From: Rhodobacteraceae bacterium IMCC1909
GTDB taxonomy: Bacteria > Pseudomonadota > Alphaproteobacteria > Rhodobacterales > Rhodobacteraceae
NCBI GenBank assembly: GCA_030704425.1
Contig: JAPDHM010000001.1
Coordinates: 1,054,001 to 1,118,000 of the forward strand
Length of the DNA stretch: 64,000 nucleotides
Reading direction: 5' to 3'
Below, one piece after another: positions 27,941 through 46,433 of the stretch (position 1 is its first letter; the number at the start of each line of letters is the position of its first letter). The notes below the pieces were generated by a model that was not told the DNA's origin, made no database searches, and saw only the letters and a list, made by a program, of their open reading frames with translations. The translations under genes and the position numbers were made by a program.

Positions 27941-28174
27941 ATGGCTTCTGATAAACAAAACTTACAAGACGCATTTCTCAATCAAGTGCGCAAAACAAAG
28001 GTTCCTGTCACCATCTTTTTGATAAATGGCGTGAAGCTGCAAGGCGTTGTCACATGGTTTGACAATTTCTGCGTGCTCTTGCGCCGCGATGGGGCATCGC
28101 AATTGGTTTATAAACATGCGATTTCAACCATTATGCCAGCCCAGCCAATTTCTCTTTATGACGGTGAAGAATAG
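27941..28174 (+). CDS. hfq: RNA chaperone Hfq
   Basis: A 77-residue Sm-like protein that binds small RNAs and mRNAs as a hexamer. The Sm1 motif is [20 protein letters not shown] and the Sm2 motif is [10 protein letters not shown]. The short C-terminal tail is usual for alphaproteobacteria. It lies five bases before hflX, the classical neighbour. Confidence 0.97.
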
Positions 28175-39892: not shown

Positions 39893-40516
39893 ATGACAAA
39901 AAATGATCCCAGTTCGATTATCCAAATCGCTCGTGAAAATGGCAATTCTGAAGATGGATTGCCTCTCAACCTTGGGTTGCGCGTGCGCGAATTGCGCAAA
40001 GCGCGCAATTGGACGTTACAGCAAGCCGCGAGCCAAGCAGGTCTGGCCCGCAGCACCCTATCAAAAATCGAAAATGGGCAAATGTCTCCGACCTATGATG
40101 CGTTAAAAAAGCTTGCCATTGGCTTGGAAATTTCCGTGCCACAGCTCTTTACCCCACCGGTCAACAATCAAATCAACGGCCGCCTGGCCCATACCAAAGC
40201 GGGCGAGGGGCAAAGCCATGTCACCGCCACATATGAGCATGAACTTTTAGCCAATTCCCTGTCAAAAAAACGCATGTTGCCCTATCGCGCCGTGGTACAC
40301 GCCCGGTCGATGGAAGAATTCGATGGCTGGGTGCGTCATGATGGTGAGGAATTCCTCTATGTGCTGACCGGGGTGGTTAAGCTATATACGGAGTTCTACG
40401 AACCGATTGAGATGCGCCGGGGTGATAGCGCCTACTACGATGCCTCTATGGGGCATAATGTGGTGACGCAAAGTGTGGAAGATGCGACCATTTTATGGGT
40501 CACCTCGCTCGGTTAA
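39893..40516 (+). CDS. XRE family regulator with C-terminal cupin
   Basis: A 207-residue protein with an N-terminal XRE helix-turn-helix (LRVRELRKARNWTLQQAA, then GLARSTLSKIENGQMSPTYD) and a C-terminal cupin (VRHDGEEFLYVLTGVVKLY, GDSAYYDASMGH). Such regulators usually sense a small acid or its CoA ester and control catabolic genes. ATG 39893 is favoured; a GTG at 39869 is possible. It is divergent from the acyl-CoA synthetase gene and its stop overlaps the convergent aquaporin gene by four bases. Confidence 0.87.
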   Translation: MTKNDPSSIIQIARENGNSEDGLPLNLGLRVRELRKARNWTLQQAASQAGLARSTLSKIENGQMSPTYDALKKLAIGLEISVPQLFTPPVNNQINGRLAHTKAGEGQSHVTATYEHELLANSLSKKRMLPYRAVVHARSMEEFDGWVRHDGEEFLYVLTGVVKLYTEFYEPIEMRRGDSAYYDASMGHNVVTQSVEDATILWVTSLG

Positions 40517-41172
40517 CCGCTTGTTTCGGTGTTAAATACGGCCCTTACAGCCCAAAGCGCCAGGGCCATTCCGATCAGTTGGCATAGGATAAACATTGGC
40601 ACATGGGCCGGATCAATCCCTGCAAATGTATCTGACAGCGCCCGCGCGATGGAGACCGCAGGGTTGGCAAAGCTGGTGGAGGCGGTGAACCAATAGGCTC
40701 CTGTGATATAAAGCGCGACCATTGTGGCAATGGCTTTGGAGTTTTGTGCCAAACCGCCGAAAACGATCAGCAACAGCCCGAAACTTGCAAAAATTTCAGA
40801 CACCCAAAGCGGCCCACCGCTCCGCGGGGTTTGCGAAAGCTGAAACAAGCTTTGATCAAACATAGCATGGGTCAAGATAACCCCCGTAATTGCGCCAAAA
40901 ATCTGCGCTGACATGAAGGCGCAGGCCCGCGTGATTGGCATCTCGCCGCGCAGCACAAAGGCCAGGGAGACAATGGGGTTGAAATGCGCGCCAGAGACCG
41001 CACCAAATAGGGTGATGATGCAATAGAGCATACAGCCCGTTGCAATGGCATTGGCCAGTAGCGCCAAAGCAATATTTCCACCAGCCAGAGTCTCAGCCAT
41101 GATTCCGCTGCCGACCACTGAAACTAATAGAAAACCTGTCCCCAAAAACTCCGCAAGAACCGCATTTTTCAT
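40513..41172 (-). CDS. Aquaporin/MIP family channel
   Basis: A 219-residue channel with six helices and the two half-helix loops. The second carries the classical Asn-Pro-Ala (SFANPAVSIARAL), but the first is Asn-Pro-Ile (GAHFNPIVSLAF). The start at 41172 (MKNAVLAEFLGTG) has GGAG at about ten bases; the upstream open frame overlaps the previous gene. Water, glycerol or metalloid transport cannot be distinguished. It lies 31 bases downstream of the YejA-like gene. Confidence 0.87.
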   Translation of the reverse strand: MKNAVLAEFLGTGFLLVSVVGSGIMAETLAGGNIALALLANAIATGCMLYCIITLFGAVSGAHFNPIVSLAFVLRGEMPITRACAFMSAQIFGAITGVILTHAMFDQSLFQLSQTPRSGGPLWVSEIFASFGLLLIVFGGLAQNSKAIATMVALYITGAYWFTASTSFANPAVSIARALSDTFAGIDPAHVPMFILCQLIGMALALWAVRAVFNTETSG

Positions 41173-41203
41173 TGTGGATCTACTCCAATATTTACCCCAG
41201 CGC

Positions 41204-43024
41204 CTATTGCGCTTCATACCACCAAACATCCGGCAGAAATCCAATCCAATCGCCATACATCGGTAGGCGATCGGGATATTTGATTTCTTTGACATGGGCC
41301 AATCTGCTGAAAGAACTCGTGTGAATTGGAATAACGTAGCGTCCCGCGGTTAAAATCCGGTCCAGCGCCTTCACGGCCGCGAGAAAGTCCTCTCGGCTGG
41401 TCGAGCTCACCAGTTTTGCAATCATAGATTCGGCAGCGGGAGAGTTCATCCCCATCCAATTGCGGGTGCCAGATTGATCCACCCCATAGCCGCCCCAATA
41501 GAGCATCTGTTCATTGCCGGGGCTAAGCGACAGGCCACGTCGATAATAGGCCATGTCAAAATCGTAGATCTGCGTGCGCTCTTTATATTGTGCCGCATCG
41601 AGCACCTCTGTCGTGAGGGTGATGCCCAAACGTTCGAGGGCTTGTTGATAAATATCCATCATCGATTGGCTTTCCGTGTCCCCTTGTTTCAACGTCACTG
41701 TGATTTCAAAGGGCGCGCCCTTTGCATTTCGGCGCACCCCGTCTTGAACAGTCCAACCGGCTTTTGTCAGCAAAGCATCGGCTGCACGAATATTCTTACG
41801 ATTGCGCGCGCTGCCGTCAGATTGCGGCAGGCGGTAGCCTTCAATCGTGCCGGCCAGAAGGGTGTCCGCATAGGGCTCCAACAACTCAAGCACCCGACCT
41901 TTCGCTGGTCCCGCCTCCATTGAGAGCACCGAATTTGAGAAATAGGAGGTGATCCGCTCCTGGCGCCCGCCGGTGTTCGCCTGATTGATGAACTCGAAGT
42001 TAAACGCCGCAATCAAAGCCTCGCGCACACGCCAATCTGCGAACTTGGGCTTGCGCGTGTTCATCACAAAGCCTGTGATGCCGCTGGGGCGCTTGTGGGG
42101 TATGATGGATTTGACGATTTTCCCCGTCTGGACGGCGTCAAAATCGTAAGAGTTTTCCCAGCGTTCGGCGTTCAACTCTCTGAATGAGGAGGATTCGCCC
42201 GCTTTAAATGCCTCGAACTGCACCGATCCATCCGCATAGAAATCCAATCGAACCTCATCAAAATTGTTTGTGCCGCGACGAAATCCAATGTCTTTGCCCC
42301 AATACTCTGGGTTGCGCATGAGACGAACATAGTTTCCCGGATCAAAATCGCGGATGACATAGGGGGCACTGGAAATGGGGATTACATCAAGGCCGGAATT
42401 TTCGAAATCTGCGCTCTCCCATTGTGCCTTTTTCAAAATTGGTCTGAGACCCACCAAGAGCGCCAACTCACGGTCCTGATCGGCAAAGGTGAATTTCACC
42501 TTACGCGGTCCGGTCTGGCTGACCGTTTCAATTTTCTTCCAAAGCCCGTGGTAGCGCGGATGACCAATGGTGCCCAAAGTTTCATATGACCAAATCACAT
42601 CCTCCACCGTCACTGGGCTGCCATCAGAGAATCGCGCCTGTGGATGAAGCGAAAATTCAACCCAGCGGCGGCTCTCATCGGTCTCAATCGATTCGGCGAG
42701 AAGCGTGTAAAGGGTGAAAGGCTCGTCATAAGAACGGCCCATCAGGCTTTCATAGGCCAGGAACCGAAGCTGCCAAGGCACAGAGCCTTTGCGGACATGC
42801 GGATTGAGAGAGGTGAAGGTGCCTCCCTCTGCGGAAACGATGGTTCCCCCTTTTGGAGCGTTTGGGTTTGCATAGGGTAGGGACACAAAATCATGTGGTA
42901 ATGCGGGTTCACCATACATAGCTATGCCATGCGTTGGCTCTGCCATCCCCAAATTGGCCGCCAGCAAAGCGGCGGCAAAAACCGCGCCAATAAGTTTGGA
43001 ATTGATCCCTTGTCCATATGTCAT
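41204..43024 (-). CDS. Extracellular solute-binding protein family 5, YejA-like
   Basis: A 606-residue periplasmic peptide-binding protein. The signal peptide is KLIGAVFAAALLAANLGMA. The mature region shows the family 5 pattern seen in YejA: HGIAMYGEPALPHDFVSLPY, NPNAPKGGTIV, FTSLNPHVRKG and FSDGSPVTVEDVIWSYE. YejA proteins bind oligopeptides or microcin C-like compounds for the YejBEF importer. No yejBEF genes follow; the downstream gene is an aquaporin. The start at 43024 has AGGAT upstream. Confidence 0.87.
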   Translation of the reverse strand: MTYGQGINSKLIGAVFAAALLAANLGMAEPTHGIAMYGEPALPHDFVSLPYANPNAPKGGTIVSAEGGTFTSLNPHVRKGSVPWQLRFLAYESLMGRSYDEPFTLYTLLAESIETDESRRWVEFSLHPQARFSDGSPVTVEDVIWSYETLGTIGHPRYHGLWKKIETVSQTGPRKVKFTFADQDRELALLVGLRPILKKAQWESADFENSGLDVIPISSAPYVIRDFDPGNYVRLMRNPEYWGKDIGFRRGTNNFDEVRLDFYADGSVQFEAFKAGESSSFRELNAERWENSYDFDAVQTGKIVKSIIPHKRPSGITGFVMNTRKPKFADWRVREALIAAFNFEFINQANTGGRQERITSYFSNSVLSMEAGPAKGRVLELLEPYADTLLAGTIEGYRLPQSDGSARNRKNIRAADALLTKAGWTVQDGVRRNAKGAPFEITVTLKQGDTESQSMMDIYQQALERLGITLTTEVLDAAQYKERTQIYDFDMAYYRRGLSLSPGNEQMLYWGGYGVDQSGTRNWMGMNSPAAESMIAKLVSSTSREDFLAAVKALDRILTAGRYVIPIHTSSFSRLAHVKEIKYPDRLPMYGDWIGFLPDVWWYEAQ

Positions 43025-43101
43025 CTGGGGCAGATCCTTTTGTTTTTGCCGGGCTGTGGCCACAGGCTAGCGTGGGAATATTACATTTTCAAACTTTTAG
43101 C

Positions 43102-43130
43102 TTGGACCCGCTAAACAGTTTGTTTATAGT
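43102..43130 (+). promoter_or_regulatory. Sigma-70 promoter of the predicted small RNA
   Basis: TTGGAC (43102-43107), an ideal 17-base spacer, and TATAGT (43125-43130) in the gap between two minus-strand genes. No protein-coding gene lies downstream on this strand before the terminator at 43185. Confidence 0.65.
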
Positions 43131-43136
43131 AGTGTT

Positions 43137-43212
43137 ACTGCTCGATAGGTTTCTTGCCTGTATGAAACCTGCCTCAATAACTTGACGCCAGCTTCGTGCT
43201 GGCGTTTTTTTT
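43137..43212 (+). ncRNA. Predicted small RNA, ~76 nt
   Basis: The expected start about seven bases after the -10 box is A43137. The transcript folds into a first hairpin AGGTTTC (43147-43153)/GAAACCT (43164-43170) with a pyrimidine-rich ten-base loop. A single-stranded CCTCAATAA-type linker follows, then a terminator hairpin ACGCCAGC-TTCGT-GCTGGCGT with a run of eight T ending at 43212. Promoter, two stems and terminator fit the layout of a trans-acting, possibly Hfq-dependent regulator. No family was recognised; it lacks the CCUCCUCCC motif of CcsR RNAs. Confidence 0.65.
43185..43212 (+). terminator. Terminator of the predicted small RNA
   Basis: Perfect eight-base stem ACGCCAGC/GCTGGCGT, loop TTCGT, then an uninterrupted T run. 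On the minus strand there is no T tract after the stem, so it is oriented for a plus-strand transcript. Confidence 0.85.
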
Positions 43213-43237
43213 GCTCCCGATGATGCGAAGGGCGCGC

Positions 43238-43843
43238 TCAAGAGCACACCAACAAAGCGGCAATGGCCCACATGGTCATGCCAACCAAAATATCCAGCAC
43301 CCGCCAAGCCTTGCTCGATCCCATAAGCGGCGCCAATATTCGAGCACCGAATCCAAGGGCGCAGAAAAACACCAAAGACCCTAAACTGGCACCTGTCGCG
43401 AAGGCGTAGCGTAGGCTGTCTGCATCATATTGTGCCGATACTGCGCCGATGAGGCCGATTGTGTCGAGATAGACATGCGGATTTAAAAAGGTGAAACCGG
43501 CTAGAGTAAGGAAGGTCTTTTTGAGACTTTCTCGTCCCTCGCCAAGCTGCAAACTATAGTCCCCCCGATAGGCCGCGCGAAAACGTAGGGCGCCATAGGT
43601 GCATAAGAACACTGCGCCGGCCCAGGTCATCAGACGGGCGAACCCCGGCGCCATCTGCGCCAAAACTCCAAAGCCAATCACCCCTGTCCAAATCAGAAGC
43701 GCATCGCTGGCAGCGGCAAAGAGGCATAGAGGCAAGACATGGCGACGTAGAATGCCCTGACGCAGGATGAACACATTTTGCGCTCCCACCGCCAGGATCA
43801 GCGACATGAGAGTGACGAAACCGGTGAAAAAGGCCTGGGTCAC
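43238..43843 (-). CDS. LysE/ArgO family amino acid exporter
   Basis: A 201-residue membrane protein with five or six helices. The LysE signature is GAQNVFILRQGILRRHV near residue 20, and NPHVYLDTIGLIG lies near residue 125. Basic amino acids (Lys, Arg) are the usual substrates of this branch. The start overlaps the end of the DUF502 gene by four bases, indicating cotranscription. Confidence 0.9.
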   Translation of the reverse strand: MTQAFFTGFVTLMSLILAVGAQNVFILRQGILRRHVLPLCLFAAASDALLIWTGVIGFGVLAQMAPGFARLMTWAGAVFLCTYGALRFRAAYRGDYSLQLGEGRESLKKTFLTLAGFTFLNPHVYLDTIGLIGAVSAQYDADSLRYAFATGASLGSLVFFCALGFGARILAPLMGSSKAWRVLDILVGMTMWAIAALLVCS

Positions 43844-44538
43844 GCGCTGGTTGGCGCGCTGTCTTCGGGATAGACCAGACCCGCCGATATAATCAGCTTC
43901 GCTGCATCCTCAACAGACATTTGTAGCTCTGTGATGTCCTGACCCGGCACAAACAACAAAAAGCCAGAGGTCGGGTTGGGCGTTGTCGGCACGAAAACCG
44001 AGACCAATTTATCGCCATCAGGCGCATGGGCGGCAACCTCACCTCGGGCGGTGGTGGCGACAAAGCCGATCACCCAGATTCCCTTGCGCGGGTATTCAAT
44101 CAAACAGGCCCGGTCAAAGCTGTTATTTTTTTGATTAAAGACCGTTTCTGCGATTTGCTTGACGCCGCTATAGATCGTGCGCACCACGGGCATGCGGCGC
44201 ACCAAACCTTCAGCCCAACGCAGCAAAGACCGCCCCACAAAGCCTTTTCCGAGCCAGCCCACAACAAAGGTGAACACCAAAAAGACAATGAGGCCAAATC
44301 CGCGGATGTCATATTGGTCGCTCAGCTGAATATCGAAAAGAGTTTGGATATAGCGATCGGGCTGATAGCTGTCAGGGACAATCGCCCAGACCCGCGCATC
44401 AATCCACCCCACGACCGACCAAATCAACCAAGCCGTCAGCCCGATTGGCGCGATAATAACCAAGCCGGTAAAGAAGTTTGAGCGCATTGCGCCCATCCAA
44501 CCTTTACGTCGGTGTTTTTGATCTGGTGTCGTTTGCAT
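43840..44538 (-). CDS. DUF502 family membrane protein
   Basis: A 232-residue protein with two transmembrane helices (FFTGLVIIAPIGLTAWLIW and FGLIVFLVFTFVVGWLG). The family motifs are MPVVRTIYSGVKQIAETV and the soluble C-terminal VSVFVPTTPNPTSGFLLFVP. Function is unknown across bacteria. It is translationally coupled to the LysE exporter gene. Confidence 0.88.
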   Translation of the reverse strand: MQTTPDQKHRRKGWMGAMRSNFFTGLVIIAPIGLTAWLIWSVVGWIDARVWAIVPDSYQPDRYIQTLFDIQLSDQYDIRGFGLIVFLVFTFVVGWLGKGFVGRSLLRWAEGLVRRMPVVRTIYSGVKQIAETVFNQKNNSFDRACLIEYPRKGIWVIGFVATTARGEVAAHAPDGDKLVSVFVPTTPNPTSGFLLFVPGQDITELQMSVEDAAKLIISAGLVYPEDSAPTSA

Positions 44539-44612
44539 GCGGTGTCCTATGTCCCTGTCGCCCGTGGTTTAGCCAGCACACTCTTGCGTTACAAGATTTT
44601 TTCTATCCATCT

Positions 44613-45536
44613 TCATGATTTAGGCAATTCCCTGCAGGATTTGGCGATCTGAGCGGCCAACCGCGCATTATTTTTCACCAGGGCAATATTGGTTTGCAGG
44701 GATTTGCCCTCGGTCAGCTCAAAAATGCGGCCCAGTAAAAACGGGGTGACAGCTTTGGCGTTGATCCCTTGCCTGTGGGCCTCATGCAGGGCCAGCTCTA
44801 TCATTGGGCCGATCTCTTCGGCGCTAATCTCATCGGCCTTTGGCACGGGATTGGCAATCAATTGCCCGCCGCTTAGGCCCAGGGCTTGGCGCGCACGCAA
44901 TCCGGCTACAATCTGCTGAGGCGTATCGCAACGCAGGGGGGCAGGGATGTCACTTTTCTGCGACCAAAAGGCAGGCATCTCGTCTTGACCATAAGCAATC
45001 ACAGGAACACCATAGGTTTCGAGGACTTCCATGGTTTTGGGGATATCTAAAATGGCTTTGGCCCCGGCGGCCACGACGATAGTATCGGTGAGTGCCAATT
45101 CGCGCAGATCTGCCGAAATGTCAAAGGTGAGCTCTGCGCCGCGGTGCACCCCACCAATGCCTCCAGTTGCGAACACCTCAATGCCAGCCGCCTGCGCTGC
45201 AATCATCGTGGCGGCCACCGTGGTGGCGCCGCTTTTGCCCTGTGCCATAACAAAGGCCATATCTGCGCGCGATACTTTGGCGACATCGCGCGCCTGTGCC
45301 AAATCTGTCAATTGCTCCGGATCCAGCCCGATATGCAGCGAACCGTTCAGGACTGCGATGGTTGCCGGAACGGCGCCTGCGTCTCGCACCTCTTGCTCAA
45401 CCGCCCGTGCCACTTCCAAGTTTTGCGGATAGGGCATGCCATGGGTGATGATCGTGCTCTCCAGCGCCACCACCGGCTTGGAAAATCCAGCATCGGTCCG
45501 AATAGCCTCAATCTCGGCGTTACAGGTCAGTTGCAT
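44613..45536 (-). CDS. psuG: Pseudouridine-5'-phosphate glycosidase
   Basis: A 307-residue enzyme that splits pseudouridine 5'-phosphate into uracil and ribose 5-phosphate. Motifs: VVALESTIITHGMPYP, GKSGATTVAATMIAAQ, FATGGIGGVHRG and KAVTPFLLGRIFELT. It follows the kinase psuK with a three-base gap, giving the standard two-step pseudouridine degradation pathway. Confidence 0.94.
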   Translation of the reverse strand: MQLTCNAEIEAIRTDAGFSKPVVALESTIITHGMPYPQNLEVARAVEQEVRDAGAVPATIAVLNGSLHIGLDPEQLTDLAQARDVAKVSRADMAFVMAQGKSGATTVAATMIAAQAAGIEVFATGGIGGVHRGAELTFDISADLRELALTDTIVVAAGAKAILDIPKTMEVLETYGVPVIAYGQDEMPAFWSQKSDIPAPLRCDTPQQIVAGLRARQALGLSGGQLIANPVPKADEISAEEIGPMIELALHEAHRQGINAKAVTPFLLGRIFELTEGKSLQTNIALVKNNARLAAQIAKSCRELPKS

Positions 45537-45539
45537 AGT

Positions 45540-46433
45540 CTATCCCTCTGATTTTCCTGAAACATAGGCTGCGGCTGCATTTGAGGCGGCTTGCAGCGCC
45601 TGCAGTGCACCTGCACCGCGCAGCTCTGCGGCGATATGTGCGGCCATAAATGTGTCGCCTGCACCTGTGACACGGCTGGCCAAAACAGCAGGCGGCAGGG
45701 CCAGAACGCAGCCGTCGCCATCGGCCTTAGCGGCGGCTTTAGGGCCATGGGTCACAACTGCGCGATTGGCACCACGCGCCACCAATGCCGAGGCCGCTTC
45801 GGCCGCGTCGCTGAAGTCACGCCCCAAAATCAACTCCGATTCTTCAACATTGACATAAAGCGTTGCGCCCGGGTGCCCAAGCAGCGGCAACAATCGCTCC
45901 GCCTTTCCCGGAGAGGCCGGCGCGATCCGCAAATCGGCTCGGGCAAACAGCGGGGAGGCGGCGATCTGCGCCAAAAGCCCCACGGTCAGATTGCCATCAA
46001 GTGCAATCAAGCCATGAAATGGCTGCTCAGCCCGTCCCAGACGTCCGTCAGCCAGCGGCCGCAATATCTTGTCTCCCGCCGCTTCAAGTGAATGGGCATC
46101 CGCAATCGCCGCAATTAGGCCGTTGCTGCCCTCAATGGCCATATAGCGGTCGGTCGGTAGGTCTTGGGAGCGGTAGAGATTCTCGGTATTGAGCCCCAGA
46201 ACTTCTGCGGCCGCAATCAATTCCTGCCCATCAAGGTCTTGTCCAACCACGGACAAAAGTGCCGGATGCAGATCAAATCGCTTTAAAGTCATCGCAATAT
46301 TCATGGCGACACCGCCCGGCAACCGCGTAATACGGCCCGGCACATCGGACCCGGCTTGCATGGCACGGGTTGAGCGGCCAATGACATCCCACAGCACCGA
46401 ACCGATGCACAATATATCTGGACTCTGCGTCAT
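45540..46433 (-). CDS. psuK: PfkB-family pseudouridine kinase
   Basis: A 297-residue ribokinase-fold kinase. The PfkB signatures are RLPGGVAMNIAMTLKRF near the N-terminus and VTGAGDTFMAAHIAAEL near the C-terminus, with the catalytic Asp in GAGD. The adjacent psuG makes pseudouridine the expected substrate. ATG 46433 (MTQSPDILCIG) is the natural start; a TTG at 46448 is in frame. Confidence 0.9.
   Translation of the reverse strand: MTQSPDILCIGSVLWDVIGRSTRAMQAGSDVPGRITRLPGGVAMNIAMTLKRFDLHPALLSVVGQDLDGQELIAAAEVLGLNTENLYRSQDLPTDRYMAIEGSNGLIAAIADAHSLEAAGDKILRPLADGRLGRAEQPFHGLIALDGNLTVGLLAQIAASPLFARADLRIAPASPGKAERLLPLLGHPGATLYVNVEESELILGRDFSDAAEAASALVARGANRAVVTHGPKAAAKADGDGCVLALPPAVLASRVTGAGDTFMAAHIAAELRGAGALQALQAASNAAAAYVSGKSEG

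Follow-up and report, generated by a model that had tools for sequence, protein, structure and literature searches.

A conserved small RNA gene of Rhodobacteraceae, probably an StsR ortholog, with a partner site in the mraZ/dcw leader

StsR and the small RNA gene of the window

StsR (RSs0827) of R. sphaeroides is a small RNA (sRNA) of 72 nt (PMC8307010) that is under RpoHI/RpoHII control, pairs with UpsM as well as the dcw 5' leader, promotes RNase E cleavage and acts as a stress-induced brake on cell division (PMC8307010, PMC8625941, PMC11354728). It binds Hfq (PMC8307010), and RSs0827 reportedly rises when iron is limiting and in the late phase of singlet-oxygen stress (PMC3688512, PMC3413700). 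The RpoHI/RpoHII promoters of R. sphaeroides carry TTG at -35 and TAT at -12 (PMC3441632, PMC10673084), and the long dcw leader that yields UpsM has been described as a feature of the Rhodobacteraceae (PMC5089854). The accessible portion of the StsR literature, which does not take in the primary description (10.1093/nar/gkab491), contains no statement on conservation of StsR across the family.

We analyzed an sRNA gene in Rhodobacteraceae bacterium IMCC1909, located in a 64,000-nt stretch of contig JAPDHM010000001.1 (the window), which a preliminary description had regarded as undescribed. The best evidence instead makes it an ortholog of StsR acting on the dcw leader and UpsM, a reading that we hold with a probability of about 0.9. 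The gene is complementary to the very RNA with which StsR reportedly pairs. The resemblance comprises the predicted length of 72-76 nt (vs. 72 nt), an RpoH-like promoter and the conserved complementarity to the dcw leader/UpsM; it is drawn from partner, length and promoter rather than from the R. sphaeroides stsR sequence, the nearest named locus being that of Cereibacter flavus (L105). UpsM with the long dcw 5' leader carries the partner site and is thus the target, not the window sRNA itself. Unlike StsR, the window gene and its relatives gave no sign of pairing with rpoE in 11 loci, and the partner site of the window genus has one mismatch. As for rpoE, where pairing has been reported just after the start codon, no helix rose above shuffles in the 11 loci with a recognized rpoE-like ORF, that of the window genome included and that of R. 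sphaeroides not among them, as judged by a simple ungapped helix; the pairing has been reported for R. sphaeroides alone, and we do not regard it as a defining trait of the family.

Searches with Rfam 15, covering the window and the local stretch, returned no match above the gathering threshold. The overlaps below threshold, namely SorY (RF02651; 13.7/111 bits), RyhB (RF00057; 19.4/55 bits), Hrs12 (RF02630; 16.9/70 bits) and NsiR1 (RF02399; 12.7/39 bits), were not taken as relatives, and the exact sRNA string was not found in a text search of the literature. How deeply the sRNA is conserved, the presence of its partner site throughout the family and the mismatch in the target site of the window genus are apparently new, at least to us.

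Features of the sRNA locus and its surroundings (positions in the window)
Feature	Position	Strand	Remark
hfq coding sequence	27941..28171	+	PF17209
YejA-like periplasmic binding protein gene	41204..43063	-	PF00496; likelier start ATG at 43024
Conserved TTCAAACTTTTAGC block	43088..43101		directly upstream of -35 box; goes with divergent yejA
-35 element TTGGAC	43102..43107	+	conserved part TTG
-10 element TATAGT	43125..43130	+	direct reading of sequence
StsR-type sRNA, predicted ~72-76 nt	43137..43212	+	both ends predicted from sequence
Near-invariant 41-nt block, nt 1-41	43137..43177	+	pattern search, family genomes
Hairpin 1, 7-bp stem, 10-nt loop	43147..43170	+	AGGTTTC-TTGCCTGTAT-GAAACCT; direct reading, folding
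Pairing region, nt 19-36 (hairpin-1 loop and 3' arm)	43155..43172	+	complementary to mraZ/dcw leader (UpsM)
Intrinsic terminator, stem ACGCCAGC/GCTGGCGT	43184..43212	+	stem covaries
LysE-type exporter gene	43238..43843	-	PF01810

Direct reading bore out the promoter, hairpin and terminator positions proposed earlier (43102-43212, plus strand), with a 17-nt spacer between the -35 and -10 elements, 6 nt from TATAGT to A43137 and a terminal run of eight T at 43205-43212. The predicted transcript, its ends read from the sequence alone, would run from 43137 to 43208-43212. Folding of the 77 nt from 43137 to 43213 yielded -25.2 kcal/mol (z = -4.4), a value that none of 200 shuffles equaled. As had been proposed, the gene overlaps neither flanking gene, both of which lie on the minus strand (ORFs, PF00496, PF01810), and Hfq is indeed encoded on the plus strand about 15 kb away; since StsR binds Hfq, a role of Hfq for the window sRNA is plausible by analogy.

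The promoter had been called ideal, which is overstated: TTGGAC agrees with the sigma-70 consensus TTGACA in 3 of 6 positions, that is, in TTG alone. Among 143 loci, these three positions are conserved in 100, 88 and 95%, respectively, and the TATA positions of the -10 element in 96-99%, with TATAAA as the commonest form in the family. The loci numbered 147 and were picked from among the matches listed for an exact 34-nt pattern, or as best BLAST matches (30 loci), so identity within that pattern is built in by the choice of locus; four with short flanks were left out. With its conserved TTG at -35 and TAT at -12, the sequence agrees with the pattern reported for RpoHI/RpoHII, and the promoter looks more like an RpoH type than an ideal housekeeping one.

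Conservation of the gene across the family

In unselected samples of the family (198 genomes, used for the BLASTN, 41-nt and partner-site searches), the sRNA region was matched in 193 genomes by BLASTN with a 121-nt query, with a single match in 190 of these 193; for good assemblies, the figure was 172 of 174. The 41-nt pattern starting at A43137 was found in 190/198 genomes with up to 3 mismatches, and the block was exact in 137 of 150 places among the matches listed. BLASTN against 385 genomes drawn from the whole class yielded six matches, five within the family (for which this sample carries no family denominator) and one weak partial match outside, in G345, which spans nt 48-68 only and hence the terminator. 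A covariance model based on 62 sequences gave seven matches in 367 class genomes, five of them strong and within the family; the two weak ones outside (G431, G270) consist of an ordinary G+C-rich terminator only, the 41-nt block reaching at most 18/41 there.

We also examined a hard set of 20 genomes picked mainly as difficult cases, in which the covariance model found the sRNA in 15, including three genomes (G029, G102, G136) missed by the 41-nt pattern. The five assemblies with no model match are 71-92% complete, and three of them (G033, G133, G166) still carry a partner site in the mraZ leader.

In the 62 sequences, 6 of the 8 pairs of the terminator stem are changed on both sides, with 52 cells vs. 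15.7 in shuffles, and further pair types are not above shuffles (11 vs. 11.4). All 7 pairs of hairpin 1 are invariant, but these sequences were selected with the hairpin-1 stretch exact and thus carry no covariation evidence either way for this stem. Together with its presence in 193/198 family genomes, the covarying stem upholds the view of a free-standing sRNA gene that has a promoter and a terminator of its own. A consensus scan of 40000-46000 yielded 1 promoter-like and 5 terminator-like sites vs. shuffle means of 3.8 and 7.6, respectively, and is by itself no evidence for a gene; we judge the window gene to be a real, highly conserved sRNA gene because of conservation and terminator covariation, not because of consensus scans.

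A few rare lineages have an altered loop or 5' end in the sRNA (L223 in G029, L217 in G059, L222 in G102). No clean case of compensatory change emerged among the sRNA variants (G029, G059; the leader of G017 lies beyond its contig): the altered 5' end in G029 has a 10-nt match to its own leader, and in G059 no match of at least 9 nt was found between the altered sRNA and its own leader.

The partner site in the mraZ/dcw leader

Leaders of mraZ were collected from 29 of 30 genomes, one genome having no MraZ match; 28 of the 30 were among the best BLAST matches, and a second match in G042 (L177) was left out. Uninterrupted complementarity to the sRNA reaches at least 15 nt in 22 of the 29 leaders and at least 10 nt in all 29, as compared with a mean of 7.0 and a maximum of 11 in 580 shuffled leaders; a second round of 580 shuffles gave at least 10 nt in 10, at least 11 in 3 and at least 12 in 2. 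Measured against these shuffled lengths, leader matches of 15-18 nt greatly exceed what chance would give, but one of 10-11 nt, taken alone, does not. Five of the 29 leaders (10, 10, 11, 11 and 11 nt), including both from the window genus, are not above the shuffle maximum, and in three of the 29 the best 18-nt match (12, 12 and 13 positions) is near the shuffle mean of 12, a mean taken from the two window-genus leaders.

The site, AGGTTTCATACAGGC, is complementary to hairpin 1 in its loop and 3' arm. Of the 29 leaders, 27 have the core CATACAGGC and were aligned on it, so that the core is fixed by selection; positions 5' of the core are 74-100% conserved as far as the complement extends and about 33-62% farther out. 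By folding, the core is unpaired more often than the leader average (0.61 vs. 0.43), and co-folding predicted, in all four leaders tried, an opened 3' arm in hairpin 1 and a duplex over about nt 18-39. In the hard set, mraZ was present in 17 genomes with a readable leader in 16; 10 of these 16 have CATACAGGC, G133 has the variant AGGTTTCGTACAGGC, G030, G083 and G102 have different stretches of the complement (9-15 nt), and G059 and G029 have no clear site for sRNA nt 19-41. When AGGTTTCATACAGGC was sought across the 198 family genomes with up to one mismatch, at least two sites, one being the sRNA gene and the second counted anywhere in the genome, were found in 145, a single site in 48 and none in 5; the reversed control had any match in 12/198.

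The leader of the window genome itself (L166) reads GCAGGTTGCATACAGGCA about 190 nt upstream of mraZ, with one mismatch within the duplex that is common to the sister genome (L175), the one further member of this genus in the sample. Both leaders match 17 of 18 positions, which 0 of 1000 shuffles each equaled.

Two further complementary stretches are leads only. CGAGCAG, in the dcw leader of all 29 genomes (L166:1073-1079), is complementary to sRNA nt 2-8 (CUGCUCG) and might be a second leader contact; it is absent from the predicted minimum-energy complexes of the four co-folded leaders. TGAGGCAGG, at the mraZ start/ribosome-binding site (L166:1199-1207), is complementary to sRNA nt 33-41 and could provide an added contact there; among 25 leaders listed, all 9 nt are found only in L166, and 8/9 in L175, L152, L154 and L164.

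Alternative readings and proposed role

The setting between yejA and a LysE exporter, as first described, is common to the family as regards the divergent yejA, but the LysE neighbor is not kept in most of the loci examined. Among 151 of 162 loci (duplicates and loci with less than 400 nt upstream being left out), 145 have a YejA gene upstream in divergent orientation. The other six (L036, L042, L052, L057, L062, L100) have the sRNA without a YejA neighbor; two of them bear the name Neomegalonema and several others look A+T-rich. At least 9 of the 11 positions of TCAAACTTTTA are matched in 129 of the 145 loci with YejA and in none of the six without. The block upstream of the -35 box, TTCAAACTTTTA, being present in most loci with YejA and absent from those without it, may therefore be a property of yejA or of the lineage, and the TTCAAACTTTTAGC block is a possible control element of yejA. 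That the sRNA itself regulates yejA, in cis or through a shared promoter, would accord with the prevalence of the divergent gene; however, the sRNA does not overlap yejA, persists in the six loci that lack it and has its strong complementarity to the mraZ leader instead. We consider this reading very improbable and have rejected it.

Of the other readings, one would retain the same RNA family but have its main job moved to other mRNAs in the window lineage, leaving the leader pairing as a remnant. The one mismatched position in the leader site of the window genus speaks for such a shift, as does the near-invariance of sRNA nt 1-10 and 37-41, which fall outside the contiguous match in most of the 29 leaders. 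Nevertheless, when the leader of the window genome was co-folded with the sRNA of the sister species, which differs from that of the window by a single base not in the pairing region, a duplex with one mismatch was still predicted over nt 19-39, and no conserved partner of the sRNA other than the leader site was found; we deem the shift unlikely. A mini-ORF (MKPASIT) in place of an untranslated RNA has in its favor an ATG within the invariant block and a stop at the eighth codon in 58 of 109 distinct sequences, but 49 of the 109 have no in-frame stop before the end of the 78-nt segment, for which reason we rejected it; in addition, spacer indels shift the frame and no clear ribosome-binding site was seen by eye, so that we regard translation as extremely improbable. 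Finally, the notion that promoter- and terminator-like strings merely align by chance, to which the consensus scan lends itself in giving no more sites than shuffles, is refuted by family-wide conservation and terminator covariation and has a practically negligible probability.

Taking the gene as an StsR ortholog, we envisage that stress or stationary phase would switch the sRNA on, probably via an RpoH-type sigma factor, and that the sRNA would probably be held by Hfq. We infer that the hairpin-1 loop GCCUGUAUG would be the starting seed, landing on CAUACAGGC in the long dcw 5' leader and on UpsM, the sRNA that arises from termination within this leader. The 3' arm of hairpin 1 would then open and the duplex extend to about 15-18 bp, whereupon RNase E may cut the leader and expression of division and cell-wall genes would drop. 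This scheme joins the gene, its conservation, the terminator covariation, the promoter match and the partner site, as established above, to steps carried over from the R. sphaeroides StsR work, i.e., induction, Hfq binding, the RNase E step and the effect on growth. Because the 41 near-invariant nucleotides exceed the 15-18 nt used by the leader, we surmise that there is a second conserved partner, be it RNA or protein. Tentatively, and at somewhat less than even odds, we postulate an old, co-maintained division brake of the whole family, made up of StsR paired with the UpsM/dcw leader, with the second partner fixing the sRNA 5' end ACUGCUCGAU and the segment CUGCCUCAA; the CGAGCAG contact within this leader is one candidate.

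Annotation that relies on Rfam would miss this sRNA, since no family of Rfam 15 matches it. The family also offers a natural data set on the co-evolution of an sRNA and its target, in which 41 bases of the sRNA are near-invariant, the partner site is conserved and one side has changed in a few lineages. If our reading is true, a division-control circuit described in one phototroph would be common to most of the Rhodobacteraceae and could be tested there.
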